From assembly GCF_016806835.2 (NCBI RefSeq), contig NZ_CP086113.1, forward strand, positions 124,001 through 188,000: a stretch of DNA of 64,000 bases, read 5' to 3'. Shown piece after piece: positions 11,366 to 62,519 of this stretch. Made by a program: the position numbers and the translations under genes. The stretch's first letter is position 1, and every line of letters begins with the position of its first letter. The notes under the pieces are model-generated. The model saw only the letters and a list, made by a program, of their open reading frames with translations. It had not been told where the DNA came from and did no database searches. Origin of the DNA: Skermanella rosea (GTDB taxonomy: Bacteria; Pseudomonadota; Alphaproteobacteria; Azospirillales; Azospirillaceae).

Positions 11366-11416
11366 AACGGTTATCACCCGCCGGCGCGCGGCAACGAAGA
11401 ACGAGCGAGAAACAGG

Positions 11417-41897: not shown

Positions 41898-41943
41898 ATG
41901 GGATGACCGGAGCTGGGGGAGTGGCTTCGAACCGGCGTTGCCG

Positions 41944-42477: not shown

Positions 42478-42511
42478 GATGAACTCCGGTGGAGAAGGAT
42501 GATTCCTGAAC

Positions 42512-44553: not shown

Positions 44554-44556
44554 GAT

Positions 44557-45582
44557 TTAATCTTCGTCCTCTTCGATCGGTCCGGGACTGCGAAGCCCGG
44601 CCACGTTGCGGAACTGGGGAGCGCCGTCGGGCGCCAGCTCCATCAGCAGCTCGAGAAAATCCCGCGACACCATCTGCTTGGCCCGCTCCAGCAGAACGGG
44701 GACGGGACTCGACGGCTCGTTCGTGCGGTACCACTGGCAGATGCGGTCAAGCAGGCCGATCACGTCGGCGCGGCTGGCGATTCCGCCGGCCACCGATTGC
44801 GTCGGACCGTCCTCCCGCCCGGTCTCGGTATCGGCTGGTTCGGCCGTGCGCCTGGGCCGTTGATCGTCGATCACCGACTTGACCTGCGCCAGCAACCCCT
44901 TCAGCGGGTCCAGCCGGATCGTGTCGCCTGGTCCGACACGGGTCAGGATGCTGGCTTCGATGGCGGCCAGCGAGGCAAGACAGGATGCGATCGCGGCGCT
45001 CGCCTCGTCGAGCGCCGCCGAGCCGGTCTCGCCGAACGCTCCCTCGACCTGAGCCAGCGTCGGACCATCGCCGTCCGGGTTGCCATGCCGGACCGCCTGC
45101 CAGTCGTTGAAGGTGAAGCTGCCGACGCCGCGGGCGGCCGCAAGCGGAATACGCCGGATTTCAGCCAGCAATCCGGCTGGATCACGGAGATTGGCAAGCG
45201 CGTTCAGGCGTATCGTCTGATCGCCCCCGTCGTCCGGGTCCGGAGCCGGGTGCAGTTCGTCCCAGTAGCCGTCCAGGTAACCGGCGATCAGCGAGAGACC
45301 GCCGGCAAGCCCGGCGAATCCCTCGGTATTGAGCCAAGCACGAGCCAGGGATATCGCGATGCGGATGTCCTTGCTGCGCCCGGCAAGCTCACCCCCCAGT
45401 TCCGCGATACGCCGCCAGTCCGGCGCTTCACCAATGGCGGTCTGGTCGCCGGCCTGCCGCTCGGGGCCGGCACGGGTGGCGCGTTCGAAATCCAGGAAGC
45501 CCGGATCGTAGTCCAGGGGTTCACCGCACAGGGACGCTCCGTCGATCGGCTCAAGCAATTCCGCATGATCAGCGCTTCGCAT
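44557..45582 (-). CDS. tssA: Type VI secretion assembly protein TssA
   Basis: This 341-residue ImpA-family protein has the N-terminal domain LLEPIDGASLCGEPLDYDPG, then DWRRIAELGGELAGRSKDIR and GYLDGYWDELHPAPDPDDGG. The C-terminal part has IGLLDRICQWYRTNEPSSPV. The ATG at 45582 has a ribosome site (GGAAGG) and starts the minus-strand operon. The short C-terminal half makes it a short-type TssA, which coordinates sheath polymerisation at the baseplate. Confidence 0.93.
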   Translation of the reverse strand: MRSADHAELLEPIDGASLCGEPLDYDPGFLDFERATRAGPERQAGDQTAIGEAPDWRRIAELGGELAGRSKDIRIAISLARAWLNTEGFAGLAGGLSLIAGYLDGYWDELHPAPDPDDGGDQTIRLNALANLRDPAGLLAEIRRIPLAAARGVGSFTFNDWQAVRHGNPDGDGPTLAQVEGAFGETGSAALDEASAAIASCLASLAAIEASILTRVGPGDTIRLDPLKGLLAQVKSVIDDQRPRRTAEPADTETGREDGPTQSVAGGIASRADVIGLLDRICQWYRTNEPSSPVPVLLERAKQMVSRDFLELLMELAPDGAPQFRNVAGLRSPGPIEEDED

Positions 45583-45842: not shown

Positions 45843-47180
45843 ATGTCGTGGAACAACAGGGTCATCTGGTCGGAGGGATTGTTCCTGCGGCCGCAGCACC
45901 TTCAGCAAGCCGATCGCTACATGGAGAAGTTCGTACGCGGCCGGACCCAGGCGTTGCGCGGTTACGGCTGGGGGTTCACCGAACTCCGGATCAACCGTGA
46001 ACTGCTGAGCCTCGGCAAGATCGCCATCGAGTATGCGGCCGGCGTCATGGAGGACGGCACGCCTTTCGCCATCCCCGACGAAGCCGACCAGCCGGCCCCC
46101 TTTGCTCCCCCCGGCAACCTGCGCAACGCGGTCATCCATCTGGCGCTGCCGGCCTATCAGCCGGGCGCCGCCGAAGCGGATGCCAGGACCGGAGACGAAG
46201 TCGTCACCCGCTACAGGGTCGCTGAACAGGATCTCGCCGACGGCAATGCCGGAGAACGGGAGCAGGTCGCGATCGACATCGGCCGCCTGCGCTTCCGGCT
46301 GATCGCCGAAGGCGCCGAACGGACGGGCTTCATCTCCATGCCGATCGCCCGCCTGATGGAGGTCCGAGCGGACCATCAGGTCGTCCTCGACGAAAGCTTC
46401 GTTCCTCCGGCGCTCGACTGCGCCTGCTCATCGGTCCTGGCCGGCTACGTGACCGAGATCGAGGGACTGCTGCATCACCGCGGCGAAGCCCTGGCGGCCC
46501 GCGTCTCGCAATCCGGGGCCAAGGGCGTCGCGGAAATCGCGGATTTCCTGATGCTCCAGATGATCAACCGTCACGAACCGTCCTTCGCTCATCTGAGCCG
46601 GAGTTCCACGGTGCACCCCGAGACGCTGTACGGCCTGATGGTTCAGCTTGCCGGCGAGCTTGCGACATATGCCCGCCCGGACAAGCGGACGCTGGCATAT
46701 CCGACATACCGGCACGAGGATCTGGCGGCGACGTTCCAGCCCGTCATCCAGTCGATCCGCCAGTCGCTGAACACCGTCCTGGAGCAGACGGCGATCCAGG
46801 TTCCGCTCCGTGAGCACAGGTATGGGATTCATCTGGCCGAAGTGAACGACCGGACCCTCTTCCGGACCTCGGCCTTCGTGCTGGCGGTACGCGCCGACGT
46901 CGAAGCGGAGCGGTTGCGCCGCGCCTTCCCGTCCCAGGTGAAGATCGGCCCGGTCGAGAGGATCAAGGAACTGGTCAATGTGGCTTTGCCGGGAATGGTG
47001 GTCGATCCGCTTCCGGTGGCGCCCCGCCAGATCCCGTTCCATGTCGGCGTGACTTACTTCGAGATCGACCGGAACAGCGCCTTCTGGAAGGAGATGCAGA
47101 CCTCCGGCGGCCTGGCGCTGCATGTCGCGGGCGATTTTCCCAACCTCGAAATAACCCTCTGGGCGATCCGCGGCGACTGA
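45843..47180 (+). CDS. tssK: Type VI secretion baseplate-membrane connector TssK
   Basis: This 445-residue ImpJ/VasE protein has the diagnostic N-terminus NNRVIWSEGLFLRPQHLQQA and the C-terminal YFEIDRNSAFWKEMQTSGGL and LHVAGDFPNLEITLWAIR. It links the baseplate to TssL/TssM. The ATG at 45843 is chosen because the upstream frame runs into the divergent promoter. It is the first gene of the plus-strand T6SS operon. Confidence 0.95.
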   Translation: MSWNNRVIWSEGLFLRPQHLQQADRYMEKFVRGRTQALRGYGWGFTELRINRELLSLGKIAIEYAAGVMEDGTPFAIPDEADQPAPFAPPGNLRNAVIHLALPAYQPGAAEADARTGDEVVTRYRVAEQDLADGNAGEREQVAIDIGRLRFRLIAEGAERTGFISMPIARLMEVRADHQVVLDESFVPPALDCACSSVLAGYVTEIEGLLHHRGEALAARVSQSGAKGVAEIADFLMLQMINRHEPSFAHLSRSSTVHPETLYGLMVQLAGELATYARPDKRTLAYPTYRHEDLAATFQPVIQSIRQSLNTVLEQTAIQVPLREHRYGIHLAEVNDRTLFRTSAFVLAVRADVEAERLRRAFPSQVKIGPVERIKELVNVALPGMVVDPLPVAPRQIPFHVGVTYFEIDRNSAFWKEMQTSGGLALHVAGDFPNLEITLWAIRGD

Positions 47181-47224
47181 TCCATTCGCCCCGCTTATCC
47201 GTCCAGCCGTGGAGGCACGAACCC

Positions 47225-48556
47225 ATGCCATTGGTCTTGCGCGTCGAGGGACCGGGAGCGATCCGGTACCGCGGATCGGACTTGCCCGAGTTGATCGAGA
47301 TCGACGACCTGCTGACGGTCGGCCGCGACGAGAGGAACGACCTCGTCCTGAGCGACGAACGACGGGGCATCTCGACCGAACATTGCCGCATCGAACGCAT
47401 CGACCGGGAATACAGGGCGACCGACCGTAGCCGCAACGGCACCTTCCTCAATGACGACACCGTGGCGATCGGACCTGACAATCATCCTTCGCTGAAGGCC
47501 GGCGACGTGATCCGGGTCGGCGAATTCGCCCTTCATGTCGTCTCGGTACAGGCGCCGATGCCGCTGCCAGCCCTGGAAGAACCGGACCTTCCCGTCACTC
47601 CCGACCTTGAGGCCGTCTCCGAACCGCATTCTCCCAACCCTCCCTTCCCCAGGCCGGCACAGTCGATGGGGCCGCTCGACGAAGACGAAGAGCCGGCCGA
47701 AGACATGACCTTCCGGGACGCCGCCGCCAGGAACTCCTTCGCGGACCACCTGCGGCCGGAAGCCTCGGTCTTCGTGGCACCCGCCGTCGGGCACCAACGG
47801 ATTCCGGACGACTGGGAGTTTTCAGCCGAAGCGCCACCCCGCGACATCGGAGAATTCGACCGGCTCCCGCCGGCTGCCGGGTCCGAGCCGGTCGGCATCG
47901 ACAAGCCGGCGGAAGACCTTGCGTCCAAGGCCGTCGATACGATGCTCGGCATCTGCGGGCTGACGCGGGGCGACGTGCCGGACGATCGCCTTGTCGACGT
48001 AATGAGCCGCATGGCGCACGCCTTCCGCATAGCGGTCGGCAATCTCCACGAGATGCTGGTCGCACGCTCGGAAGCCAAGCAGGAATTCGGGGCCGAGCGG
48101 ACGATGATCGCGCGGCTGGACAACAATGCGCTGAAGTTTCCGATGGACATGAACGCCGCCCTGCGGACGCTGATGATGAACGACATGGCCGGCTTCCTGC
48201 CGGCGGAGCAGGCGGTCGCCCAGGCATTCGACGATATCAAGGCACATCAGGTAAGCCTGCTGGCCACCACCCAGGCGACACTCCAGATGCTGGTGCGCCA
48301 GTTGGCGCCGGGATCGGTCACCGCCGGGATAAAACGCGGGCACATCACCGGATGGGTGCCGTTCCTCGGCAAGGCGCGGGCCTGGGACCGTTATGTTCAG
48401 TTGCACGGCAGCATCGACGACGACCTGGCGGCCGGCGACATGAGAATGCCGGCCGACATTTCGTCCCGTGCCTTCGCCCCGCGCACGTCGGGTCGGCAGC
48501 CGTTCCGCCGAAGGGCGAAGCCTGCAACTCCCGCGACCGGGAGGCCGAAGCCATGA
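47225..48556 (+). CDS. tagH: T6SS-associated FHA-domain protein (TagH/Fha, ImpI-like)
   Basis: This 443-residue protein has an N-terminal forkhead-associated domain (about residues 20-95) with the phosphothreonine-binding pattern TVGRDERNDLVLSDERRGIS then HCRIER and RSRNGTFLND. A Pro-rich linker leads to a C-terminal ImpI-type helical domain (about residues 225-385, ending QLHGSIDDDL). In studied systems Fha is phosphorylated by PpkA and promotes assembly. The kinase at 55180 is its likely partner. Its stop overlaps tssL. Confidence 0.92.
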   Translation: MPLVLRVEGPGAIRYRGSDLPELIEIDDLLTVGRDERNDLVLSDERRGISTEHCRIERIDREYRATDRSRNGTFLNDDTVAIGPDNHPSLKAGDVIRVGEFALHVVSVQAPMPLPALEEPDLPVTPDLEAVSEPHSPNPPFPRPAQSMGPLDEDEEPAEDMTFRDAAARNSFADHLRPEASVFVAPAVGHQRIPDDWEFSAEAPPRDIGEFDRLPPAAGSEPVGIDKPAEDLASKAVDTMLGICGLTRGDVPDDRLVDVMSRMAHAFRIAVGNLHEMLVARSEAKQEFGAERTMIARLDNNALKFPMDMNAALRTLMMNDMAGFLPAEQAVAQAFDDIKAHQVSLLATTQATLQMLVRQLAPGSVTAGIKRGHITGWVPFLGKARAWDRYVQLHGSIDDDLAAGDMRMPADISSRAFAPRTSGRQPFRRRAKPATPATGRPKP

Positions 48557-49854
48557 CCGCCGACCAGACCGCAATCGTTCCCGCCGATGTCTTCCTGGGT
48601 CTCCAACGGGGCTACGACACGCTCGATCCGCCAGGGCAGGATTCGTCCAGGCCGTGGGAGCGGATCAGCCTCGGCCGTACCAGTCCGCTCGTCATGGCGG
48701 CGGCGCCGCTGCTCAGCCTGTGCGGGCGCATCAAGAGCCAGGCGTCGCATGCCGACGTCGATACCCTGCGCCTGCATGTCCTGGGCGAGATCGACCGTTT
48801 CGAGCGCAGGATCACGCCGCTTGGCCTGTCGGCGCGATCGATCCGGGCGGGCAAATACGCTCTCTGCGCGACGATAGACGATATCGTTCTCAATACTCCC
48901 TGGGGCGGCAACAGCGTCTGGACGACCCGGAGCATGGTCGGCACGCTGTTCAGCGAAACCTGGGGCGGCGATCGCTTCTTCGATCTGCTGACCCAACTGA
49001 AGCGGGACCCCGGAAACAACATCGACCTGATCGAGCTGCTCTATTACTGCATCAGCCTTGGGTTCGAGGGAAAGTACCGGATCGCGCCGCGCGGCGCGTC
49101 GGAACTCGTCACGATTCGCGAGGACCTGTATCGGCTGATCCGAAACGTCCGGGGCGACTTCGAGCAGGACATCTCCCCGCACTGGCGCGGGACCGGCCTT
49201 GGACATCGCGGCCCCGATGCCGTCGTGCCACCCTGGATCACCGCGGCGGTGGCTGCGGCCTTTCTGCTCCTGATCCTCTCCGGCCTCGCTCTCGCGATCA
49301 ACCAGCGCTCCGATGGCGCATTTGCAGGATTGGCCGCCCTGCCGCCGGCCGGCGGCGTCGATCTGATCCGTGCGGCCCCTGTTCCTCCACCTCCCCCACC
49401 GCCGGAGGTCGCCGCCGGCCGGACAGAGGCGCTTCGGACGTTTCTGGAACCCGAGATTCGTGAGGGGCTGGTTTCGATGCGGGAGGATGCACAGACCATC
49501 GGCGTCCGGATCGCGGGCGACGGCATGTTTTCCTCCGGCCGCGCCGACGTGCTTGAGCGGTTCAAGCCCCTGCTCGGTCGCATCGGCCAGGCGCTGAACG
49601 ACCAGCCGGGCGAGATCCTGGTCACCGGCCATACCGACAGCCTGCCGATCCGCTCCCTCAAGTTCCCGTCGAACTGGGACCTCTCGCTGGCGCGAGCGAG
49701 GGCGGCGGCGTCCCTGATCGGCGGCGCCATGGCGGATCCGTCGCGGCTGACCCCCGAAGGGAAAGATTCAAGCCAGCCGGTCGCCTCGAACGACACGGAC
49801 CAAGGGCGCAAGCTGAACCGGCGAATCGAGCTGGTCATCCTCAAGGCCCAATGA
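48553..49854 (+). CDS. tssL: TssL (DotU/IcmH) with C-terminal OmpA peptidoglycan-binding domain
   Basis: This 433-residue protein has the cytoplasmic DotU domain (SPLVMAAAPLLSLCGRIKSQ, LCATIDDIVLNTPWG), one membrane helix (about residues 228-250), a Pro-rich linker and a periplasmic OmpA-like domain. The OmpA domain has ILVTGHTDSLPIRSLKFPSN, WDLSLARARAAASLI and NRRIELVIL. Such fused TssL proteins anchor the membrane complex to peptidoglycan. This probably compensates for the absence of tssJ here. The ATG at 48553 overlaps the tagH stop (ATGA). Confidence 0.95.
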   Translation: MTADQTAIVPADVFLGLQRGYDTLDPPGQDSSRPWERISLGRTSPLVMAAAPLLSLCGRIKSQASHADVDTLRLHVLGEIDRFERRITPLGLSARSIRAGKYALCATIDDIVLNTPWGGNSVWTTRSMVGTLFSETWGGDRFFDLLTQLKRDPGNNIDLIELLYYCISLGFEGKYRIAPRGASELVTIREDLYRLIRNVRGDFEQDISPHWRGTGLGHRGPDAVVPPWITAAVAAAFLLLILSGLALAINQRSDGAFAGLAALPPAGGVDLIRAAPVPPPPPPPEVAAGRTEALRTFLEPEIREGLVSMREDAQTIGVRIAGDGMFSSGRADVLERFKPLLGRIGQALNDQPGEILVTGHTDSLPIRSLKFPSNWDLSLARARAAASLIGGAMADPSRLTPEGKDSSQPVASNDTDQGRKLNRRIELVILKAQ

Positions 49855-49865
49855 GGGGAAATTCG

Positions 49866-52800
49866 ATGATCGATGCCCTGAAGCTGCCGATCTCCCTGCG
49901 GACGGGATTCATTCTCTGCGGGCTCGCCGTCGTTTCCGGGGCGGCCTTCGTCATCGGACCGCTGATTTCTATCGGCGGCGCCGATCCCTTCTCCAGCCTT
50001 GCCGGCCGGATCGGCTTTGCCGCGCTGGCACCGGGGATCTACGGCGTGACGAGGCTGGTCGAGAGCTGGAGGACGTTCCGGCAGAATGCGGCCATGCTCG
50101 ATTCGGCGGTCAGGCCGGAAGCCGATGCCGCCGGCGGGGCCGAATACGCCCATGAGAGCGCGGAGATCGCCCAACGCCTGCGGGAAGCCCTGTCGGTGCT
50201 CAGGAAGCGCCGTTTTCCGGGAGCCGCAGGCAAACGCTGGCTGTACCAGATCCCCTGGTACGTCATCATCGGACCGCCGGGTTCCGGAAAGACGACGGCG
50301 CTGGTGAATGCCGGCCTCAGCTTCCCGCTTGCCGACCGGTTCGGCAGGAATGCCATGCGCGGCATAGGCGGAACGCGAAGCTGCGACTGGTGGTTCACCG
50401 ACGAAGCCGTGCTGATCGACACCGCCGGCCGCTACACGACCCAGGACAGCGATGCCGGCAAGGACCATGCCGCGTGGCTTGGGTTTCTGCGCCTGCTGAG
50501 GCGATATCGCCGCCGTCAGCCCCTGAACGGGCTGCTGGTGGCGATCGCGGTCGACGAGGTGACCGAAGGCCGGGAGGAGGCGCGTCTGGCGCATGCCCGG
50601 CTGATCCGCCGGCGCATTCAGGAAGTCCAGGCCGAGTTGCGGATCCGGCTGCCGGTCTACCTGCTCCTGACCAAGGCGGACCTGATCTCCGGCTTTACCG
50701 AGTTCTTCGACGATCTCGGCCGAGAAGGCCGGCAGTCCGTCTGGGGCTTTACCTTCGACCTGGATGGCGACCGGCAGGAAGATGGAAAGGACGACCGTGG
50801 CGTCGCGCCGGTAGACCGCTTCGGCGGTGCGTTCGACGCGCTGGTCGGCCGGCTGGACGAAAGGCTGATCGACCGGCTGCATCAGGAACGCGACGGCGCC
50901 CGGCGCAATGCCGTCTACAGCTTTCCGCACCAGGTCGCCAGCATCAAGGACGCGCTGACCCAGTTCGTCGAGGAGGCGTTCCGCCCGAACTCCTTCGAGC
51001 AGGAGATCATGCTGCGCGGTGCCTATTTCCTCAGCGGCACCCAGGTCGGTACGCCGATCGACCGCGTCCTGGCCGCCATGAGGAGGAGTTTCGGGATCGG
51101 TCCTCAGCCGAAGGCGGCCGGTATCCAGCCGAAGCGCAGCTATTTCCTGACCCGCCTGCTGCGCGAGGTGGTGTTCGGCGAAGCCGGATTGGCGAATGCC
51201 GATCCCCGGATCGAGCGAAATCGGCGCCGCATCGCCTGGAGCCTCCATGGCGCGATCGCCGTCCTGTGCGTCGCGGCGGCCGGGGTGGCGGGGATCGGCT
51301 ACATGCTCAATCGGACGCTGATCGAGAAGGTCGAAGCCGCCGCGGGCGACTATGCCTTGAAGGCGCGGGAGATGGACCTGGACCAGGTCGGCGATTTCGA
51401 CCTCGCCCGCGTCCTGCCCCTGCTCAACGAGGTGCGCGACATCCCGACCGGCTATGCGGAACGAGATCTCCCGCGCTCGTGGCTGGCGGGCCTGGGCCTG
51501 GACCAGACCGAAAAGCTCGGCTCGCAAACGGTCGGCGCCTATCGGCGCATCCTCGGCTCCGTGTTGCTGCCGCGCCTGATCCTGAGATTGGAGGACCAGC
51601 TCCGCAAGCGCCCTGACGAACCGGAGTTCCTCCATCAGGCCCTGAAGGCCTATCTCATGCTCGGCGGACAGGGGCCGATGGACCGCGCGTTCGTCGAGCG
51701 CTGGTTCGAGTTCGAGCTACGGGCATCCTACCCCGACCAGCAGGATGCCCGGCTGCGACAGGATCTCGGCGGCCACATCAAGGCCCTGCTCGAGCGTCCG
51801 CTGCCGCAAGTCGGCCTGGACGGCGATCTGGTGAGCCAGCTCCGCGCCGTCCTGAAACAGACTTCGCTCGCCAAGCAGACGCTCGACGCGATCGCCGCCG
51901 GTCCGGAGGCCGCCGCACTTCCCGGCTGGACGATAGCCGATCATGCCGGCCCGGCCGGCACCTGGGTCTTCCACCGCGCCAGCGGCCTGCCGCTCGCCGA
52001 CGGCATTCCCGGTCTGTATACCCGTGACGGCTTCTTCAGGACCTTCCTGCCGTTGCTGCCCCATTACGCCGAAACGATGCGGCAGGAGGCGTGGGTCCTT
52101 GGCAGCGGGCCGGTAAAGATGAGCCCGGAAGCCGAGGCGGAGCACGAACGCGATACCGTCGGTCTTTATCTCCAGGCGTTCGCGCTCCGATGGGACAGGT
52201 TGCTGGGCGACGTCGCCGTCAATTCCGCGAAATCCTATGACGACGCGTTGCGCACGCTGAGCATCCTGTCTTCGCCGACCTCTCCGATCCGCCTTCTGGT
52301 CGTCTCGGCCGGCACAGAGACCAGGCTCGCACAGCCGGCCGGCGACGCGGCGCCCCCGAACCGTCAGGCGATGGCCGACGAGAAACTCGCCAAGCTCCTG
52401 CTTCGGCAGCGGAACCCCGACAGCATCGCCGCGCTGGCAGAGCGCTTCAGCGCCGAGCATTTCCGGGAACTGCACGCGCTGAGCATGGTTCCGCCCGGCA
52501 GTTCGGCCAGCGCCCAACCTCGGATCGACGAGGTGATCGTCAGCCTCGGCAATCTCTACCGCTCGCTCAACCAAGCCCGCTTCGGGGGAACAAGCTCCGG
52601 GGACGCACGGGGCGACGGTCAGATCACGCCGCTGCAAGACAGCGTCGACGGTGCGGCTGCCCTGGCCGAGATCGATGCGCAGGCCGCCAGCCTGCCGGCT
52701 CCCGTGCGTAACTGGATCACCGGCATCAGCCGGACCAGTTCCTCCATGTCGTCGGACGGCGTTCGTCAACGGCTCACCGATGCGTGGCTTGGAAACGGCG

Positions 52801-53477
52801 GTCGGTTCTGTGCCCAGGCGACGGCCGGCCGCTACCCTTTCGACAGGACCGGTACCGACGAAATCTCGCTCGAAGACTTCGCCCGGCTCTTTGCGAAGGG
52901 CGGGCTGATCGACAGCTTCTTCGAACAGAACCTGGCTTCCTTCGTGGACAAATCCGCCCAGCCCTGGCGATGGCGCAAGCTCGGCCCGGTCGATTTGAAG
53001 TTGTCGCGGGAGTCCCTTGCCCAGTTCGAGCGGGCGGCGCTGATCCGCGACAGCATGTTCCCGCCCGGCAGCACCAGACCGGAGGCCGGCTTCCGCCTGA
53101 CGCTGGTGCGTACCAGTTTCGGGACGAGCGGGATCGACGTCTCCGTCGGCGGCAGGACCGCCAGCCTTGCTCCGGGAAGCGCCCAGTCGGCGCAATTGAG
53201 CTGGCCCGGGAACGATCCCGCCACCGGTACGAGCGTGACCTTCAAGTCCGGTCTTCCCAACTCCCGTCCGACCGCGATCGTCATCGACGGTCCCTGGTCG
53301 CTGTTCCGCCTGCTCGACCGGAGCCTGCTCCAGGCCGACGCCGCGACGCGCGATCGTCTGACGGTCCGGATCGCCAGCGGTCCCGCCGAGGTCGATCTCC
53401 TCCTTCAGGAAAGCAGCCTTGCAAACCCGTTCGGGGCTAATCCCGTCAGCGCATTCCGCTGTCCCAGAACCCTCTGA
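49866..53477 (+). CDS. tssM: Type VI secretion membrane protein TssM (IcmF)
   Basis: This 1203-residue inner-membrane ATPase-like core protein has two N-terminal helices, a Walker A GPPGSGKTT (G136 on) and a DTAGRY Walker-B-like motif. A third helix follows at about residues 457-480, then a large periplasmic domain ending in IcmF C-terminal sequence (VDLKLSRESLAQFERAALIR). The ATG at 49866 has a strong AGGGGA site. The ATG at 49851, overlapping the tssL stop, is an alternative that adds five residues. Confidence 0.95.
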   Translation: MIDALKLPISLRTGFILCGLAVVSGAAFVIGPLISIGGADPFSSLAGRIGFAALAPGIYGVTRLVESWRTFRQNAAMLDSAVRPEADAAGGAEYAHESAEIAQRLREALSVLRKRRFPGAAGKRWLYQIPWYVIIGPPGSGKTTALVNAGLSFPLADRFGRNAMRGIGGTRSCDWWFTDEAVLIDTAGRYTTQDSDAGKDHAAWLGFLRLLRRYRRRQPLNGLLVAIAVDEVTEGREEARLAHARLIRRRIQEVQAELRIRLPVYLLLTKADLISGFTEFFDDLGREGRQSVWGFTFDLDGDRQEDGKDDRGVAPVDRFGGAFDALVGRLDERLIDRLHQERDGARRNAVYSFPHQVASIKDALTQFVEEAFRPNSFEQEIMLRGAYFLSGTQVGTPIDRVLAAMRRSFGIGPQPKAAGIQPKRSYFLTRLLREVVFGEAGLANADPRIERNRRRIAWSLHGAIAVLCVAAAGVAGIGYMLNRTLIEKVEAAAGDYALKAREMDLDQVGDFDLARVLPLLNEVRDIPTGYAERDLPRSWLAGLGLDQTEKLGSQTVGAYRRILGSVLLPRLILRLEDQLRKRPDEPEFLHQALKAYLMLGGQGPMDRAFVERWFEFELRASYPDQQDARLRQDLGGHIKALLERPLPQVGLDGDLVSQLRAVLKQTSLAKQTLDAIAAGPEAAALPGWTIADHAGPAGTWVFHRASGLPLADGIPGLYTRDGFFRTFLPLLPHYAETMRQEAWVLGSGPVKMSPEAEAEHERDTVGLYLQAFALRWDRLLGDVAVNSAKSYDDALRTLSILSSPTSPIRLLVVSAGTETRLAQPAGDAAPPNRQAMADEKLAKLLLRQRNPDSIAALAERFSAEHFRELHALSMVPPGSSASAQPRIDEVIVSLGNLYRSLNQARFGGTSSGDARGDGQITPLQDSVDGAAALAEIDAQAASLPAPVRNWITGISRTSSSMSSDGVRQRLTDAWLGNGGRFCAQATAGRYPFDRTGTDEISLEDFARLFAKGGLIDSFFEQNLASFVDKSAQPWRWRKLGPVDLKLSRESLAQFERAALIRDSMFPPGSTRPEAGFRLTLVRTSFGTSGIDVSVGGRTASLAPGSAQSAQLSWPGNDPATGTSVTFKSGLPNSRPTAIVIDGPWSLFRLLDRSLLQADAATRDRLTVRIASGPAEVDLLLQESSLANPFGANPVSAFRCPRTL

Positions 53478-53492
53478 CCAGAGGCCCTTTTC

Positions 53493-54242
53493 ATGACCGT
53501 TTCACGCATCGGCTACTACGGCAAGCTTCCCGCCAGAGCCGACTTCGTCAGCCGCCGTCTTCCCGAGGAGTTCGTCAAGCCGTGGGATGCCTGGATACAA
53601 TCGGCTCTCTCGGCCGGCGAATCCTGGGGCGGCGAGGTCTGGAGGCAGCGCTTCCTGGCATCGCCCACCTGGCGTTTCGCCCTGCCGGCCGGCACATGCG
53701 GCCGTACCGGCTGGACCGGTGCCCTTCGCCCGAGCGTGGATGCGGTCGGGCGCTGCTTTCCGTTCGTGCTGGCGGCGGAACTGCCGGGTGCTGCTGACAT
53801 CCTCGCAGTCATGGATGCCGGTTCCGGATGGTTCGAGACATTGGAAGCGATGGCCGGCGCTACTGCCCGGCCCGACTTCGATCTCGGATGGCTGGACCGG
53901 CCGGTTCCGTCCATCCGGTCAGCCGCCGGCGGGAAAATCCGATGGCCGTCGCTCGGCGCCGCGCATTCCGTCGGGCTCTGGCACGAACTCCCCAGCATCC
54001 TTGCGGTGACGACGGCACTGCGCCGAAAGCCTGCATCCGGGCGGGCGGCGGCGCTCTGGTGGACGGCCGGCACGCCGGCCTTCGGCTCCGGCATCGCGCT
54101 CACTGCGGGACTGATCCCTCCCGCCGCCTTTCCTGCCCTGATCGACGGTTCCTGGGGCGACCATGGCTGGACGGTGACGGACGGCACGGCGCAGGCCGAC
54201 GATCCGGAACCGGCCCCGCCGGAATGGGATCGGACGGCATGA
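53493..54242 (+). CDS. tagF: T6SS-associated protein TagF (ImpM)
   Basis: This 249-residue protein carries the ImpM N-terminus IGYYGKLPARADFVSRRLPE and WDAWIQSALSAGESWGG, and the GALRPSVDAVGRCFPFVLAA segment. TagF is a post-translational repressor of T6SS that acts with Fha in other proteobacteria. A phosphatase (PppA) fusion or gene is not present here. It follows tssM by 15 bp. Confidence 0.93.
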   Translation: MTVSRIGYYGKLPARADFVSRRLPEEFVKPWDAWIQSALSAGESWGGEVWRQRFLASPTWRFALPAGTCGRTGWTGALRPSVDAVGRCFPFVLAAELPGAADILAVMDAGSGWFETLEAMAGATARPDFDLGWLDRPVPSIRSAAGGKIRWPSLGAAHSVGLWHELPSILAVTTALRRKPASGRAAALWWTAGTPAFGSGIALTAGLIPPAAFPALIDGSWGDHGWTVTDGTAQADDPEPAPPEWDRTA

Positions 54243-54264
54243 CGTCGATCGTAGGGAGATCGCC

Positions 54265-55137
54265 ATGCGGCTGATCGTGAAGTTCAACCTGGTGATCACA
54301 CTGGCTTGCGTCACCGGCCTGATCGTGTCGGCCCTGCTGATGCGGGAAAAGTTCGTTACCGATGCCCGTACCGAAGTCCTCGCGAATGCCCGGATCATGA
54401 TGCAGTCCAGCGATTCGATCATGCGCTACACCGAGCAGGAGGTCACCCCGCTGCCGCAGGCGCTCGGGCATGACAAATTCGTCAGGGCGGCGGTACCGTT
54501 CTTCGCAGCCGGGTCGATCTTCGAGGACCTGCGCCGGCACTACCCGGACTATTCGGTTCGCAATGTGGCACTCAACCCGACCAATCCGCGGGATCGTCCG
54601 ACCGAGTCCGAAGCCGATATCGTAAACGGTTTCCGGTCCTTTCCTGACCGAGCCGAAATGGTGACCGAGCGGCAGACGCCCAATGGCCCGATCATGAGCC
54701 TGTCGCGCCCGCTGGTCGCGGCACCGGAGTGCCTTGCCTGCCATAGCACGCCGGCAAATGCGCCGAGTGCCATGATCGACACCTACGGCAGCGCCAACGG
54801 CTTCGGCTGGCAGCCCAATGAGACCGTCGGGGCGCAGATCGTTTCGGTACCCCTCAGCCTGCCGCTCGCGCGGGCCGAAGAGGCCGTCGCTCACCTGCTC
54901 CTCACCTGCGGAACGGTCTTCCTGGCCGTCCTCGCCGTGCTCAACCTCTTTCTCTATTACCTTGTCGTCAAACCGATCCGGGACATGGCGAAGATGGCCA
55001 ACGATGTCAGCCTGGGCAAGCCGGACACGCCGGAATACGAGCGCCGGGGCAGCGACGAGATCGCGACCCTCAGCCTGTCGTTCAACCGGATGCGTCGCAG
55101 CCTGGAAGGTGCCATTCGAATGATCGAGGGCACATGA
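54265..55137 (+). CDS. Membrane c-haem sensor protein (DUF3365/Tll0287-like domain plus HAMP)
   Basis: This 290-residue protein has an N-terminal helix (about residues 7-26) and a periplasmic domain of about 180 residues. That domain contains a covalent haem motif ECLACHS (C156-H160). A second helix follows (about residues 208-232), then a cytoplasmic HAMP domain (VVKPIRDMAKMANDVSLGKP) ending at about residue 285. It has no kinase or cyclase output of its own. It sits 22 bp after tagF and 42 bp before the Ser/Thr kinase. The likely role is to sense redox state or a gaseous ligand through the haem and pass the signal to the kinase; that link is inference. Confidence 0.88.
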   Translation: MRLIVKFNLVITLACVTGLIVSALLMREKFVTDARTEVLANARIMMQSSDSIMRYTEQEVTPLPQALGHDKFVRAAVPFFAAGSIFEDLRRHYPDYSVRNVALNPTNPRDRPTESEADIVNGFRSFPDRAEMVTERQTPNGPIMSLSRPLVAAPECLACHSTPANAPSAMIDTYGSANGFGWQPNETVGAQIVSVPLSLPLARAEEAVAHLLLTCGTVFLAVLAVLNLFLYYLVVKPIRDMAKMANDVSLGKPDTPEYERRGSDEIATLSLSFNRMRRSLEGAIRMIEGT

Positions 55138-55179
55138 CCGCCTTGCCGGAAAACACACACGACAGGGGGAGCATCGTCG

Positions 55180-56505
55180 ATGGAACTGCCCTGTGAATTG
55201 GGTCGCTATGTCCTGCTGGAGCGTATCGGTTCCGGTGCGATGGGGTCCGTATTCCGAGGTGAAGATCCGGTGATCGGACGTCCGGTGGCGGTCAAGGCGA
55301 TCCACGCGAGCTTGCTGAACCCCGGCGACCGGGACCAGCATCTGGCGCGCTTCAAGGTCGAGGTGAAATCGGCCGGACGCTGCCAGCATCCGAACATCGT
55401 CGCGATCTACGACTACCTGGAGCAGGACGGCGACCCCCATATCGTGATGGAACTGGCACCGGGCAGATCGCTCCAGCATCTGATGACCGGGCGACGCCGG
55501 TTCCCGGTTACGCTTGCGGCCGATCTGATCGGGCAGTTGCTGGCGGCTCTCGGCCACGCGCACGGGCGCGGCGTGATCCACCGCGACATAAAGCCGGCCA
55601 ATCTCATCATTGATGGGGATCGGCGGCTGAAAGTCACCGATTTCGGCATCGCCCGCCTTGGCGGGGGCGATATCACCGTCAATGGGATGATGCTCGGCAC
55701 CCCCGCCTTCATGGCCCCCGAACAACTCAAGGGCGACGATCTGGATCACAGGGCCGACCTGTTCGCCGCCGGGATGGTGCTGCTGCATCTGGTCACCGGT
55801 CGTTTACCTTATGAGGGGGCGAGCTTGGCCGGTTTGCTGGTCGAGCTTGCCTCCGACCGCCCTGTCGACCCCCACCATGCCGGCGACGTCGATCCACGCC
55901 TGACGCCTGTGCTGAAACGCGCCCTGGCGAAGCATCCCGATGACCGCTTCGAGACCGCCGGCGCCTTTGCGGAGGCCCTTGCATCGGCCGTGTCGCGGCC
56001 GGACGACAGCGAGCTCTGGCCTTCCGAAGCGCCAGCGGCGACAGGCTGCCTGCAATCCGACTTCATCCAGCGCGTCGAGCGCGAATTGATGGAAGTGACC
56101 GGACCTGTAGCCCGCATCCTGGTGCGCGAAGCGGGGAAACGCGCGGCGTCGGAGGAGCAAATCGTCTCCCGGCTGGCGGCCGGCATTCCCGATGCGCGAA
56201 GCCGCGACCAGTTCCTCCATGCGTTCGCGGAGCGCAGGCCGAAGGTGCCCTCCCCCTCTCCCCCTCCCTCTCGCGAGCTCGGCAGTGGCGCTGGACTGCC
56301 GATCTCGCCCCAGGCGCTGGAAGCGGTACAGACTCTGCTGGTCAGCTTCGTCGGGCCCTTCGGGCGCATCCTGGTCCGCCAGGGATCGGTGCGGGCGGCA
56401 TCCATCAGCCAATTCTATGACCAGTTGGCGGTTCACATCAAACACGAGAAGGACCGGGAGGCGTTTCGTAGGAAATTCTTGGAAAGAATCCCGCCGAAGT
56501 CTTGA
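55180..56505 (+). CDS. Soluble serine/threonine protein kinase (PpkA-like) with tandem C-terminal repeat domain
   Basis: This 441-residue kinase has an intact catalytic domain (about residues 9-275): the glycine loop RIGSGAMGSVF, K39 in VAVKAIH, HRDIKPANL (D136), DFG (D154) and PAFMAPEQL. The C-terminal part has two related units of about 60 residues (291-349 and 376-436), each with GP(V/F)xRILVR...RAAS..Q, joined by a Ser/Pro linker. It lacks the transmembrane helix and periplasmic domain of classical PpkA. The membrane sensor encoded immediately upstream may supply these in trans. TagH is the expected substrate. Confidence 0.93.
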   Translation: MELPCELGRYVLLERIGSGAMGSVFRGEDPVIGRPVAVKAIHASLLNPGDRDQHLARFKVEVKSAGRCQHPNIVAIYDYLEQDGDPHIVMELAPGRSLQHLMTGRRRFPVTLAADLIGQLLAALGHAHGRGVIHRDIKPANLIIDGDRRLKVTDFGIARLGGGDITVNGMMLGTPAFMAPEQLKGDDLDHRADLFAAGMVLLHLVTGRLPYEGASLAGLLVELASDRPVDPHHAGDVDPRLTPVLKRALAKHPDDRFETAGAFAEALASAVSRPDDSELWPSEAPAATGCLQSDFIQRVERELMEVTGPVARILVREAGKRAASEEQIVSRLAAGIPDARSRDQFLHAFAERRPKVPSPSPPPSRELGSGAGLPISPQALEAVQTLLVSFVGPFGRILVRQGSVRAASISQFYDQLAVHIKHEKDREAFRRKFLERIPPKS

Positions 56506-56669
56506 CGGCGTTCCGGACACTGCGGCCCCGGCACATCGTCGGTATAGGAATATCGGTAGACCGGCTTTGCATGAACCCCTCGTGTTACCGAATGGTAATT
56601 GTAACGCGACAATCCCCAACCGCCGGTATCCGGCAGTCCGGGCATGCCCGTTGAAGAAAGATCGCTGCG

Positions 56670-59279
56670 ATGACGATCATTACCCGCGACACCGTATTCG
56701 ACCGGCTCGGCGAGTTCTCGATGAAAACCCTCCAGGGCGCCTTCGAGTTTGCGACCTTGCGCGGCGATACTTACATCGAACCGGTCCATTGGCTCGATCG
56801 CTGGCTGCGTGCCGAGGACAGCGATGCCTCGCTGATCCTCGAGCGGCTTCAGGTTCCGCGCGACGCCTTGCAGAAGGACATCGAAGCCGCGCTGTCGAGC
56901 ATGGTCCGGGAACGCTCCTCCCGCCTCGACTTCTCCCGCGAGCTTGAACTCCTCATGGAGCGGGGCTGGATCGGCGCAAGCCTGCTGTTCGGCCAATCCA
57001 GGATCCGCACCGGGCACCTGCTGCATGGCATGATCGAGGACACGCGATTGCGCCGGCTGGCCTGCGATATCTCACCGCTTTTCAAGCGTGTCGAGGCGGC
57101 GGTCATCGCGGAGCGCTTCGGCGACCTGACGCGGGGATCGTCCGAGGAAGGCATCGATCCTTCAGGCGATTCCACCCCGGTAGCGACCGCCCATCTCGCC
57201 GGTCACGAGACAGCCTTGGGCCGATACGTTACCGACCTGACCGCGGAAGCGGAGGCCGGGCGGATCGATCCGGCGACGGGCCGCGAACGCGAGGTCCGGC
57301 TGATCGTCGATATCCTGATGCGGCGTCGGCAAAACAATCCGATCGTCGTCGGAGAAGCCGGCGTCGGCAAGACCGCCGTCGTGGAAGCCCTGGCCGCACG
57401 GATCGCCAAAGGCGACGTGCCGCCGGCCATGCGCGATGTGAGGCTGATGTCGCTCGATCTCGCCGCTCTGCAGGCGGGAGCTTCGGCGAAGGGCGAGTTC
57501 GAGAACCGCCTGAAACAGGTGATCGCCGAAATCGCCGGATCGGCAAAACCCATCGTCCTGTTCATCGACGAGGCGCATTCCCTGATCGGCGCGGGAGGGG
57601 CCGCCGGAACGGGCGACGCCGCCAACCTGCTCAAGCCGGCATTGGCGCGGGGGACCCTGCGTACGATCGCCGCTACGACCTGGGCGGAATACAAGAAGCA
57701 TATCGAAAAGGACCCGGCGCTGTCACGCCGGTTCCAGGTCGTCCAGGTCGACGAGCCGGACGAGGAGCGCGCCGTCGCCATGCTGCGCGGGATGGTACCG
57801 GTCTTTGCCGAACATCACGGGATCGCCGTTCTGGACGAGGCGGTCGTGGCGGCGGTCCGATTCTCGCACCGATATATCCAGGGCCGCCAGCTGCCGGACA
57901 AGGCCGTTTCGGTGCTGGACACGGCCTGTGCGAGAGTGGCGCTGAGCCGGAACGCCGTGCCGGCAGGCATCGAAGACTTGATGCGGCGGATCGAGCGTCT
58001 CGATACCGAACTGACGGCCCTGGCGGCGGAGCGGCGCGTTGGCCGCCTGGACGAAGCGCGGGAGGACCTGCTGTCGGGCCGATTGACGGCGGAACGGTCG
58101 GCACTGGCGGGGCTCCAGGCGCGCCATGCCGAGGAGTCCGCCCTGGTGTCGGAGATCATTGCACTGGAAGCCCGTCTGCGCGATCGGGAATCGCGGGACG
58201 AACTCGATAAGCTCCGGGGGCTGCGCGTCGACCTCGCGGCACTTCAGGGTGGTCGTCCCCTGGTGCTGCCCGCGGTCGACGAACAGGCGGTGGCAACCGT
58301 GATCGAAAGCTGGACCGGTATCCCCGTCGGGCGGATGCTGTCCGACGAGATCGACGCCGTCCTGACTTTGGCCGATACGGTGAAGCGTCGCGTCATCGGC
58401 CAGGACCACGCGCTCGACGCCATCGCAAGACGGATCGAAACCGCCCGGGCCGGCCTGGACGACCCATCCAAGCCCAAAGGCGTGTTCCTGCTGGTCGGTC
58501 CGTCCGGCGTCGGCAAGACCGAGACCGCCCTGGCGCTCGCGGAAAGCCTGTTCGGCAGTGACGACAACGTCGTCGCGATCAACATGTCGGAGTTCCAGGA
58601 GGCTCACACCGTTTCGACGCTGAAAGGCTCGCCGCCGGGCTATGTCGGATATGGAGAGGGCGGGCGCCTGACCGAAGCGGTGCGCCGCAAGCCCTACAGC
58701 GTCGTCCTGCTCGACGAGATCGAAAAGGCGCATCCCGACGTCCACGAGATCTTCTTCCAGGTTTTCGACAAGGGCTGGATGGAAGACGGCGAAGGCCGGA
58801 GGATCGACTTCCGCAATACGATCATCCTGCTGACGTCGAATGCTGGGTCCGATCTCATCTTGCGGTTGTGCAAGGATTCCATGCGGCTGCCGGCGCCCGA
58901 CGACGTCTCCCGCTCCCTTCGCGATCCCCTACTGGAGGTTTTCCCGGCGGCGCTGCTCGGCCGCCTCTCGGTCGTTCCCTATTATCCGCTGACGGACGCG
59001 ATGCTCGATCGCATCATCGGCCTGCGCCTGGACTCCGTCCAGAACCGCATCGAAGCAAGCTGGAATGTGCCGTTCACCTATGCCGAGACGCTGGTCAGCC
59101 ATATCCGCGCACGCTGCTACGAGGTGGAAAGCGGAGGAAGGATGATCGACGCCATCATGACCGGAACGCTTCTGCCGGATATCAGCCGGGAGGTCCTGAG
59201 ACGGTTGCGGGACCGGCAGCCGCTGACCGGTATCCACGTCGACGTGGACCAGGGAGAACTGCGCTACGAGTTCACGTGA
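56670..59279 (+). CDS. clpV: T6SS ClpV (TssH) AAA+ ATPase
   Basis: This 869-residue double AAA+ ATPase recycles contracted sheath. Nucleotide sites are GEAGVGKT (228-235) with VLFIDEAHSLIGAGG, and GPSGVGKT (610-617) with VVLLDEIEKAHPDVHE. The N-terminal ClpN domain is divergent, as in ClpV, and a ClpB-type middle coiled coil (about residues 435-530) is present. A ribosome site (GAAGAAAGA) precedes the ATG. The 164-bp gap after the kinase gene could hold an internal promoter. Confidence 0.95.
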   Translation: MTIITRDTVFDRLGEFSMKTLQGAFEFATLRGDTYIEPVHWLDRWLRAEDSDASLILERLQVPRDALQKDIEAALSSMVRERSSRLDFSRELELLMERGWIGASLLFGQSRIRTGHLLHGMIEDTRLRRLACDISPLFKRVEAAVIAERFGDLTRGSSEEGIDPSGDSTPVATAHLAGHETALGRYVTDLTAEAEAGRIDPATGREREVRLIVDILMRRRQNNPIVVGEAGVGKTAVVEALAARIAKGDVPPAMRDVRLMSLDLAALQAGASAKGEFENRLKQVIAEIAGSAKPIVLFIDEAHSLIGAGGAAGTGDAANLLKPALARGTLRTIAATTWAEYKKHIEKDPALSRRFQVVQVDEPDEERAVAMLRGMVPVFAEHHGIAVLDEAVVAAVRFSHRYIQGRQLPDKAVSVLDTACARVALSRNAVPAGIEDLMRRIERLDTELTALAAERRVGRLDEAREDLLSGRLTAERSALAGLQARHAEESALVSEIIALEARLRDRESRDELDKLRGLRVDLAALQGGRPLVLPAVDEQAVATVIESWTGIPVGRMLSDEIDAVLTLADTVKRRVIGQDHALDAIARRIETARAGLDDPSKPKGVFLLVGPSGVGKTETALALAESLFGSDDNVVAINMSEFQEAHTVSTLKGSPPGYVGYGEGGRLTEAVRRKPYSVVLLDEIEKAHPDVHEIFFQVFDKGWMEDGEGRRIDFRNTIILLTSNAGSDLILRLCKDSMRLPAPDDVSRSLRDPLLEVFPAALLGRLSVVPYYPLTDAMLDRIIGLRLDSVQNRIEASWNVPFTYAETLVSHIRARCYEVESGGRMIDAIMTGTLLPDISREVLRRLRDRQPLTGIHVDVDQGELRYEFT

Positions 59280-60566: not shown

Positions 60567-62519
60567 ATGCCCTATCCGGCCGCCTCAGGCGATCTTCTGA
60601 CCGACAACCGCTATGCGGAATTGACCTCGCCGGCGCTCGACGCAAGGAAAACCAAGCTCAGGTGGATGAAGGGCGTGGAACGGATCGGCGAACCATTCCT
60701 GTTCGAAGCCAAGGTCATCAGCAGCGAACCGATCAGGGATTTGTCTCCCCTGATCGGACAGTCCGCCACGACGGCCCTGAAGCTGTCGGGAGGAAGGACG
60801 CGATACTACAACGGTCTCATCACACGTTGCCGCTACGTGGGCATAGACGATACCCGGCGTACGAACTACCTGCTGGAAATCCGTCCATGGCTTTGGCTGC
60901 TCGACCAGCGGCGAAACTCGCGCATATTCCAGAAGAAGCCGACGCTGGAAATCGTCAGGACCATCTTCGCCGATCATCCGCAAGCGACATTCATCGACCG
61001 CACGAAGCCGAGCGGACTGCCGCCGCTGGAGTATGGTGTCCAGCATGAAGAGTCGGACCTTGCCTTCGTCAGCCGGCTGCTGGAACGCGAAGGGATCTAT
61101 TACTACTTCGATCATTCCGCGGACCGGCATGAACTTGTCCTGGTCAACGACACTTCGGCGCACAAGCCATGCGATCCGGAAGAGATCGAAACCCATCTGA
61201 ACCTGAAGAATCCGGGCATCCGCGACGACATCATCTGGGAATGGCAGGAGGAAGCGGCCCTTGTCCCCAGCCAGGTGATGCTGAACGACTACGACTTCGA
61301 GAAACCGAACGCCGATCTGAAGTGGATCTGCCCGGTCGCCGGGACTGCACCGGGAAAACGCGAGACCTATCATCATCCGGGCACCTACCGGTCGCTGTCC
61401 GAGGGACAGGTGCTTGCAAGGCTCCGTGCCGAGGAAATCGCCTGCCGGCAATCCCGCGTCACGGTTTCGGGAAATCTTCGGCCGCTCAAGCCCGGCTATG
61501 TCTTCAAGGCGGGCAACCCCTTCGACGTGACCGAAGGCGCCGGCACTCGCCAGACCAGGAACAGCTATCTGGCAATCGGCGTGACCTTCGAAATCCAAGG
61601 AGAGGGCGGAACCCGCGAGGACGGCGACCAGGATCGCTGGTTCCTGTACCGGGGCCGGGTCGAAGCCCTGACGGCGACCACCCCCTACCGGCCGCCCCTG
61701 CGGACCCCTGCACCGGTGATCGCCGGACCGCAGACGGCACTCGTCGTCGGTCATCCCGGCGAGGAGATCACGACCGACCGCTTCGGCCGCATCAAGGTGC
61801 AATTCCACTGGGATCGCTACGGCAAGAAGGACGGCAACAGCTCCTGCTGGGTCCGGGTCGCCCAAAGCCTGGCGGGACAAGGATGGGGCGGACTGGCGAC
61901 ACCGCGCATCGGGCAGGAAGTCGTCGTCGCCTTCGAAGGCGGCTGCCCGGACCGTCCGCTGGTGATCGGTGCGGTCTATAACCAGACCAACATGCCGGCC
62001 GCCAACCTGCCGCGGGATGCGACCCGCTCCGCCTTCAAGACCCGGACGTCACCTGACGGGTTCAGCGCCGGCAATGAACTGAGGTTCGAGGATCTTCGTG
62101 GATCGGAGCATGTCTACCTCAAGGCGCAGCGCAACCATGTGGTCGACGTGACCAACCTGTACGCGGTGGAGGCCGGCGGAAGCGCTACGATCACGTCGAA
62201 GTCCCGCACCGTTCTGGAAGGCGCCATGGTTCCAGGCGGCGCGATGGGCAGCAGGATCGAGGTGACACCGCAAGGAATCGCTTTGCGCGTGACCGGCCCG
62301 GCCGGGGTTCAAAGCCTCGTGCTGGGGCCGGACGGAGTCACCCTGGAGGGTCTGACGATCAGGCTGATGTCCAAGGGAATGATCTTCACGTCTCCCGTAC
62401 CCCTGCCCCTGCCCCCGTCCATCGCGGCGGCGTTCCAAGCGACCCAGGTCCTTCTGGTCGCGAAAGCCCGGACGGACGCCCAGCTGGATGCCGCCGAGGC
62501 CGAGCGCGACCGGACCTGA
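60567..62519 (+). CDS. vgrG: Type VI secretion spike protein VgrG (TssI)
   Basis: This 650-residue trimeric spike protein has a gp27-like N-terminal part (WMKGVERIGEPFLFEAKVIS, EGIYYYFDHSADRHELVLVN). The OB-fold signature is GRIKVQFHWDRYGKKDGNSS, with IGQEVVVAFEGGCPDRPLVI, followed by a beta-helical C-terminus. The end shows no effector domain. The ATG at 60567 has a GGGAG site; the frame upstream overlaps lysR. No PAAR or adaptor gene is adjacent. Confidence 0.95.
   Translation: MPYPAASGDLLTDNRYAELTSPALDARKTKLRWMKGVERIGEPFLFEAKVISSEPIRDLSPLIGQSATTALKLSGGRTRYYNGLITRCRYVGIDDTRRTNYLLEIRPWLWLLDQRRNSRIFQKKPTLEIVRTIFADHPQATFIDRTKPSGLPPLEYGVQHEESDLAFVSRLLEREGIYYYFDHSADRHELVLVNDTSAHKPCDPEEIETHLNLKNPGIRDDIIWEWQEEAALVPSQVMLNDYDFEKPNADLKWICPVAGTAPGKRETYHHPGTYRSLSEGQVLARLRAEEIACRQSRVTVSGNLRPLKPGYVFKAGNPFDVTEGAGTRQTRNSYLAIGVTFEIQGEGGTREDGDQDRWFLYRGRVEALTATTPYRPPLRTPAPVIAGPQTALVVGHPGEEITTDRFGRIKVQFHWDRYGKKDGNSSCWVRVAQSLAGQGWGGLATPRIGQEVVVAFEGGCPDRPLVIGAVYNQTNMPAANLPRDATRSAFKTRTSPDGFSAGNELRFEDLRGSEHVYLKAQRNHVVDVTNLYAVEAGGSATITSKSRTVLEGAMVPGGAMGSRIEVTPQGIALRVTGPAGVQSLVLGPDGVTLEGLTIRLMSKGMIFTSPVPLPLPPSIAAAFQATQVLLVAKARTDAQLDAAEAERDRT

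Follow-up and report, generated by a model that had tools for sequence, protein, structure and literature searches.

A haem receptor without an output domain and its neighbouring soluble Ser/Thr kinase, a probable split receptor kinase in a type VI secretion cluster of Skermanella rosea

A stretch of 64,000 nucleotides of Skermanella rosea (contig NZ_CP086113.1, positions 124,001 to 188,000; hereafter the window) carries a type VI secretion system (T6SS) cluster in which two adjacent genes encode HaemS, a membrane-bound haem receptor that ends without an output domain, and STK, a soluble Ser/Thr kinase. The motifs of both proteins are intact, the pair is conserved, linkage to T6SS loci recurs, and the kinase ends in a domain (the shared C-terminal domain, TCD) that is also found on other partners of such receptors. 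It is very probable, in our view, that HaemS and STK are a split receptor kinase, and likely that the T6SS is their target in the window; that they form a two-gene transmembrane (TM) receptor kinase feeding the T6SS threonine-phosphorylation pathway is a reading that we favour with moderate confidence. The architecture is a newly described variant of the T6SS phosphorylation switch, and with a haem receptor in the operon one input of this pathway becomes chemically testable. The TCD may reach further.

HaemS (290 amino acids) is matched by PF11845 (Tll0287-like, formerly DUF3365) over residues 34-196 (E 1e-33; 117 bits against a gathering score of 24.1) and by the Pfam HAMP model over residues 230-281 (E 3e-8), has hydrophobic stretches at residues 1-28 and 206-239 by hydropathy, and terminates 9 residues past HAMP. 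The initial annotation had described a two-helix protein with a periplasmic CxxCH motif, a HAMP domain and no output, and these features confirm it. The motif corresponds to C156-H160, and both of its cysteines are invariant in the 20 rows of the alignment, the histidine being missing in one row; this is the Dyella dinghuensis receptor (L040 10001-10861), which reads CMSCR and has its haem-ligating histidine replaced. As the only cysteines of HaemS are at positions 15, 156, 159 and 215, its periplasmic part has no third (axial) cysteine. HaemS is the sole PF11845 match of the whole genome (7.76 Mb, 7 contigs). A histidine-kinase or cyclic di-GMP output within the pair was rejected, none being found by Pfam; neither HaemS nor STK has a HisKA/HATPase match.

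STK starts after a gap of 42 bp and contains a Pkinase domain (residues 10-258, E 2e-46) with intact GSGAMG, VAVK, HRDIKPAN, DFG and APE motifs. No membrane helix was found in it, every 19-residue window having a hydropathy of 1.3 or less, and both the position of the kinase and its lack of a membrane part were thus correctly called at the outset. The catalytic part resembles PknB-type kinases, its closest relatives in the PDB being PknB and PknA; unlike these, STK has no PASTA match above cut-off, no TM helix and a tandem TCD instead. A PASTA kinase identity was rejected, the NCBIfam model NF033483 (PASTA kinase, Stk1/PknB) giving 247 bits against a cut-off of 450. A defence-system identity was also rejected: 34 PADLOC families match STK and, among the 25 matches listed, the best stretches lie within residues 6-331, mostly in the kinase domain. 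A single other kinase of the same genome matches STK, with 30% identity over residues 57-269. The full-length structure model is of moderate quality (mean predicted local distance difference test (pLDDT) score of 77.8, from 9 alignment rows) and, therefore, domain packing was not interpreted.

The pair is conserved far beyond its genus. A search of genome contigs with HaemS yielded 23 related loci; the nearest named relatives are Skermanella stibiiresistens (94% identity of the haem protein), S. aerolata (93%) and Arenibaculum pallidiluteum (73%). In tblastn searches with the window proteins, STK adjoins HaemS inside a T6SS cluster in Skermanella and Arenibaculum, on the same strand in two Azoarcus, and in convergent orientation in three Acidobacteriota. 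Of 398 Pseudomonadota genomes drawn, 16 contain a match to the HaemS profile at E<=1e-30. Not counting the window, five of these exceed 170 bits; in four of the five a kinase gene adjoins the receptor, and in the remaining one (G431) the receptor carries a fused GGDEF output and so needs no partner. The two genes adjoin each other in Alpha-, Beta- and Gammaproteobacteria and in Acidobacteriota, and their partnership is mirrored by the shared C-terminal domain, which tracks the receptor; this strongly supports the two-gene receptor kinase that had been proposed from the window alone. The receptor is often preceded by a third gene, which encodes a FecR-like protein in L028, L061 and L107 (under the Pfam cut-off in L028 and L061), a peptidoglycan-binding protein in L064 and L106, and caspase-like and peptidoglycan-binding products in L062, L112 and L114; TagF takes this place in Skermanella.

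As for the signal, DUF3365 was renamed sCache_heme in a 2026 preprint (PMC12889525), in the available part of which a HAMP-bearing P. azotoformans protein is reported to have two TM helices and no axial cysteine, to release nitric oxide (NO) with an off-rate of 6.25e-4 per second and to form no stable O2 complex. HaemS shares with this protein the domain, the CxxCH motif, the two TM helices, HAMP and the missing axial cysteine, and the same part of the source mentions no fused output; both features of signalling-type sCache_haem proteins (the presence of HAMP and a sensor without a third cysteine) are found in HaemS. Because of these common features NO is favoured as the ligand, and we hold it to be the signal of HaemS with about even confidence, redox being the main alternative. 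The suggestion of the initial annotation that the pair responds to a diatomic gas or to redox state therefore fits a published protein of the same architecture (binding NO, not O2), although those data are not on HaemS itself. That HaemS is instead a redox sensor or electron carrier, reporting periplasmic oxidants or the respiratory state and still driving the kinase, is a possibility to which we give limited weight: according to the same source, soluble Tll0287-type members are redox-like and all tested proteins yield superoxide with O2, whereas the HAMP architecture and the lack of an axial cysteine place HaemS with the NO-binding member. It counts against NO that no NirK above cut-off was found in the genome of the window, in a search aimed at NirK alone, and its own source of NO is consequently unproven; NirK exceeded the cut-off in one of 13 genomes examined (G005). 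The preprint, in its available main text, names no trans partner and contains "serine", "TIR" and "type VI" zero times. For HaemS, by contrast, a partner, the shared domain of this partner and a T6SS context are identified here.

Linkage to T6SS was assessed by seeking TssK in 65 receptor-bearing genomes, a non-random set pooled from several searches. TssK is present in 45 of them; the receptor lies within 10 kb of tssK in 35 and within 25 kb in 37, and in the other eight TssK is found elsewhere only. The linked genomes comprise all four Azospirillaceae, three other alphaproteobacteria (G220, G426 and G1199; in the last two the receptor is inside one contiguous T6SS cluster) and all 30 receptor-bearing Caballeronia, in each of which a tssK lies within 10 kb, though some of these genomes have up to seven tssK matches. 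In Caballeronia Lep1P3 and C. zhejiangensis, for instance, the order is FecR, DUF3365, kinase and PP2C, followed by tagF, tssM, tssL, tssK and tagH on the opposite strand, while Caballeronia SL2Y3 is T6SS-linked without PP2C; Paraburkholderia aromaticivorans is a further named example. The receptor coordinates in Caballeronia G516 and G517 match plasmids NZ_CP084262 and NZ_CP084267. On a receptor tree (71 receptors, quick method, after dropping rows of fewer than 230 matched residues, duplicates and GGDEF fusions) T6SS linkage changes state at least three times and output type at least four; support is good for the Burkholderiaceae T6SS clade and poor for the deep alphaproteobacterial order. 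The tie to T6SS claimed in the initial annotation thus holds in some lineages only: by draw, the linked share is 4/7 receptor-bearing genomes in Alphaproteobacteria (own genome included) and 1/24 in Gammaproteobacteria. Although the module recurs in T6SS loci, both in Caballeronia/Paraburkholderia and in several families of alphaproteobacteria, it is not T6SS-specific.

Several observations weaken the assignment of the pair to the T6SS. Caballeronia, one genus searched on purpose, provides 30 of the 37 linked genomes; a linked T6SS is missing from 28/65 receptor-bearing genomes, 20 of which lack TssK altogether; a PP2C phosphatase is found within 20 kb in none of the three Skermanella; and the position in the operon could mean co-expression only. 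Such a general NO or redox receptor kinase, with the T6SS only co-expressed and other targets phosphorylated in a nitrosative-stress response, is nonetheless unlikely in our judgement. The genomes in which the pair is not near tssK favour it, as do Rhodovulum sp. P5, a counter-example with no annotated T6SS gene within 15 kb, the three Acidobacteriota loci, where TssK, TssM, TssL and TagH have no match, and the plain PknB-like catalytic part of STK. However, T6SS linkage arose in at least two separate groups (the Burkholderiaceae clade and alphaproteobacteria), FHA and often PP2C genes lie in the same cluster as the linked pair, proximity to a tssK is complete in Caballeronia in spite of the multiple tssK matches, and Azoarcus keeps a TagH-type gene beside the pair. 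The latter gene (L028 12560-13606, minus strand; L029) follows the receptor and kinase and has FHA (1e-13) and T6SS_FHA_C (4e-35) matches in Pfam, but was missed by tblastn with the window TagH; no other T6SS genes were found within 10 kb of the Azoarcus pair. Outside Skermanella and Arenibaculum, the window T6SS proteins had no tblastn match in the flanks searched (E<=1e-4) except for a partial ClpV-like one in L023.

The cluster resembles the PpkA/PppA/Fha pathway of P. aeruginosa, S. marcescens, A. tumefaciens and A. citrulli, in which a kinase, an FHA protein, TagF and often a PP2C are encoded in one cluster and TssL or Fha is the phosphorylation target. In the published accounts, as far as available, PpkA is membrane-associated and, in P. 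aeruginosa, S. marcescens and A. citrulli, itself contains a periplasmic domain, and the inputs named are TagQRST, RtkS and TssW; in the window, kinase and receptor are two genes, and the receptor carries haem. The T6SS cluster of the window encodes both a kinase and an FHA protein, but neither a single TM kinase with a periplasmic domain nor a PP2C. Having no TM helix in its kinase, HaemS-STK falls outside the definition of PpkA, yet it should work in the manner of PpkA, the receptor being a separate protein. The initial annotation had noted that pppA is absent: no credible PP2C was indeed found in the window, and at E<=0.001 the genome has a lone PP2C_2 match, which lies on a different contig, but this is a trait of Skermanella, not of the arrangement. 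Of the 37 T6SS-linked genomes, 24 have a PP2C within 20 kb, for which reason the missing pppA was rejected as a defining trait, and in Arenibaculum it lies between TagF and HaemS. The window TagH keeps GR..S.EH..NGT, which we take to be the phosphothreonine-binding FHA residues.

The N-terminal motif T[AIV][ILMR]xP occurs in 10/10 T6SS-linked TssL proteins (the window included, with TAIVP), a count made without a control set; Thr6 of the window TssL is a candidate phosphorylation site from this motif. For A. tumefaciens, the available part of PMC3953482 reports that TssL is phosphorylated at Thr14 and that Fha binds the phosphopeptide (unphosphorylated 8-mer DLPTVVEI), and a review, as far as available (PMC10482370), describes the trigger of T6SS phosphorylation as an unidentified protein in A. 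tumefaciens and an unidentified signal in V. alginolyticus. In the scheme that we infer for haem loading, ligand, docking, substrate and direction of effect, HaemS would be a periplasmic sensor, probably dimeric, with a covalent c-haem that lacks an axial cysteine and binds its ligand, most likely NO (a redox reading being possible). TM2 and HAMP would relay the change of ligand state to the short tail behind them, which is conserved and to which STK would be recruited through its two TCDs, clustering or release there setting its activity. Active STK would phosphorylate a T6SS protein, most likely TssL at its N-terminal threonine or TagH; the FHA domain of TagH would read the mark and drive assembly, and the adjacent TagF would oppose it. 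Within the open-licence PMC literature, no paper joins DUF3365 and type VI secretion, and in what was listed of it no haem receptor of a T6SS was noticed.

The TCD is a four-helix domain of about 62 residues, present in two copies in the 174 residues after the STK kinase domain. Neither Pfam nor NCBIfam gives a credible match on it (E up to 1-5), and a fold search against the PDB gave no significant match, the weak ones being generic helical arrangements. A single window query sufficed for phmmer to detect the TCD in three kinds of receptor neighbour, namely the TIR protein of L038 (6e-9), the class III cyclase of L079 (2e-10) and the MscS-like channel of L113 (2e-5), and a model of 17 kinase TCD copies alone recovers TIR (4e-13 to 8e-21), cyclase (5e-16 to 1e-32) and MscS (8e-10 and 1e-6) partners. 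The search of genomes for receptor genes adjoining kinases with this domain, as proposed in the initial annotation, found the neighbourhood conserved: outside the window, 67 of 76 output-less receptor loci (same-place duplicates and the GGDEF fusion left out) have an adjacent TCD protein, mostly a kinase and otherwise a TIR protein, class III cyclase or MscS-like channel. By set, the counts are 19/23 for the first search of related loci, 4/4 for L061-L064, 12/12 for one genus, 23/27 for the gammaproteobacterial draw (minus G330), 6/6 for the alphaproteobacterial draw and 3/4 for plasmids L106-L109. In L069 the kinase is found at a distance of 1.5 kb. At five of the nine remaining loci a contig ends on the likely side of the partner: L025, L034 (where the TIR part is still visible), L039, L041 and one of two in G792, whose kinase is cut; the other G792 locus is cut upstream and has no TCD in 1.5 kb downstream. 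In G805 a TCD kinase lies 259 kb off, and the G770 locus is a second, partial receptor copy. The ninth, the cyanobacterial receptor of a Rippkaea plasmid (L109 5986-6894; 292 bits, output-less), has no TCD in 6 kb upstream or 2.6 kb downstream, and the 305-residue receptor of L060 (132 bits, below the cut) has none in 1.5 kb; both count against the split receptor kinase reading. Besides L060, the count of 76 leaves out the Kovacikia receptor (L159, 526-residue frame), where no TCD was found, a partial Sphaerospermopsis match, and the Caballeronia plasmids L154 and L155, in which a kinase adjoins the receptor by annotation.

A TCD model built from 28 copies of the window and related loci was run over 369 gammaproteobacterial genomes, with at most 16 candidates scored per genome, and found the TCD in 30 genomes, HaemS being present in 24. 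Both occur in 23, the receptor only in 1, the TCD only in 7 and neither in 338 (Fisher p 2e-29, a value that overstates independence because the genomes are related). With a limit of 2 kb, this draw has a TCD near 24/28 HaemS loci and HaemS near 26/36 TCD proteins. Of the seven genomes with the TCD only, two (G786 and G680) carry a truncated or broken HaemS beside it, two (G616 and G810) have it at a contig end, two (G546 and G574) have it beside an output-less dCache-HAMP receptor (with a dCache score under the Pfam cut-off in G574), and G833 is without explanation. The 27 control loci (25 distinct places; fused-output receptors, other HAMP proteins and L060) gave no TCD match at E<=0.5, and in the window the TCD exceeds chance in STK alone. 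The TCD is also missing from two kinases that are encoded away from HaemS and have 42-44% identical catalytic domains. The Sphingobium one (L157 8965-12406) contains a HAMP of its own, has TagH-type and phosphatase genes behind it, and may represent a fused version of this kind of receptor kinase.

Given this co-occurrence, adjacency, TCD-free controls and TCD-less comparator kinases, we interpret the TCD as the receptor-coupling part, presumably a dock for the HAMP domain of the receptor; the proposed docking end is the conserved end of HAMP with the short tail that follows (RMxxSLxxA). Instead, the TCD might serve the outputs in oligomerisation or in some other accessory role, its adjacency to receptors reflecting shared regulation. 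This is an improbable alternative, although it agrees with the frequent tandem arrangement, the generic helical folds among the weak matches and the few output-less receptors without a TCD neighbour, and TCD-HAMP docking is a reading from sequence. On the other hand, four chemically unrelated outputs carry the TCD beside output-less HAMP receptors, it occurs also beside two non-haem dCache-HAMP receptors, and the comparator kinases away from the receptor lack it. The broader view of the TCD as a plug, an unnamed domain through which output-less HAMP receptors (mostly haem/NO, sometimes other Cache) drive interchangeable Ser/Thr kinases, class III cyclases, TIR proteins and MscS-like channels in trans, and whose kinase version was taken up by T6SS clusters at least twice, putting a contact weapon under post-translational control by periplasmic NO, is in our opinion evenly balanced between right and wrong. 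It is a concrete proposal for signalling by output-less HAMP receptors, and TIR proteins, cyclases and channels would thereby be connected with NO sensing. Finally, a chance neighbourhood or misannotation was rejected, being contradicted by the conservation of the pair and supported by nothing found, and its probability is negligible.

The partners other than kinases take several forms. In Rhodanobacter, Dyella, Pinirhizobacter and an Eremiobacteraeota metagenome-assembled genome (L024, L026, L027, L030-L033, L035, L040; about 10834-11551), a TIR gene ending in one TCD lies a few bp after the receptor, while in L037 the TIR and TCD parts are in two separate frames. MscS-like channels with a C-terminal TCD stand beside a haem receptor in L113 (2355-3845) and L115 (2-1438), and could be NO-gated channels. 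In L079 and L080, one receptor has TCD proteins on both sides, a kinase upstream and a class III cyclase downstream. Additionally, in L151 (256-2067) and L152 (1492-3153) the TCD is on a small protein beside a non-haem output-less dCache-HAMP receptor (with a weak DUF4388 match in L152), a hint that the TCD serves HAMP receptors in general.

Table 1. Coordinates, within the window, of the receptor, the kinase and the surrounding T6SS genes.
Feature	Position	Strand	Basis
HaemS: TM1, periplasmic Tll0287/sCache_haem, TM2, HAMP, stop	54265..55137	+	Pfam, hydropathy, 20-row alignment
Tll0287-like (sCache_haem) domain, residues 34-196	54364..54852	+	Pfam PF11845
c-haem attachment motif CLACH, residues 156-160	54730..54744	+	sequence, 20-row alignment
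HAMP domain, residues 230-281	54952..55107	+	Pfam, 20-row alignment
STK, soluble Ser/Thr kinase, 441 aa	55180..56505	+	Pfam, hydropathy
Kinase domain with catalytic motifs, residues 10-258	55207..55953	+	Pfam, motifs
TCD copy 1, residues 291-352, no Pfam/NCBIfam model	56050..56235	+	sequence profile
TCD copy 2, residues 375-436	56302..56487	+	sequence profile; AlphaFold2 (AF2) model pLDDT 91, four helices
TssG, TssF, TssE	38491..41897	-	profile matches
Hcp (T6SS_HCP, E 4e-15)	41944..42477	-	Pfam
TssC, TssB, TssA	42512..45582	-	profile matches
TssK	45846..47180	+	profile match
TagH, FHA domain and T6SS FHA C-terminal domain	47225..48556	+	profile matches
TssL (DotU + OmpA)	48553..49854	+	Pfam
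TssM	49851..53477	+	Pfam
TagF	53493..54242	+	profile matches
TssH/ClpV	56670..59279	+	profile match
VgrG (TssI)	60567..62519	+	profile matches

The cluster (Table 1) runs as TssG, F, E, Hcp, TssC, B and A on the minus strand (38491-45582) and as TssK, TagH, TssL, TssM, TagF, HaemS, STK and ClpV on the plus strand (45846-59279), a LysR gene and then VgrG following ClpV. TagH (FHA) and TagF, already placed in the same operon by the initial annotation, were both recovered by profile. From TagH to STK, the genes are separated by 4-bp overlaps or spacers of 15-42 bp, TagF ending 22 bp upstream of HaemS; TssM has an alternative possible start at 49866. Beside VgrG, a small gene on the minus strand (62600-63073) matches the CdiA-CT RNase A domain (PF18431, E 8e-7) and is a candidate T6SS cargo.

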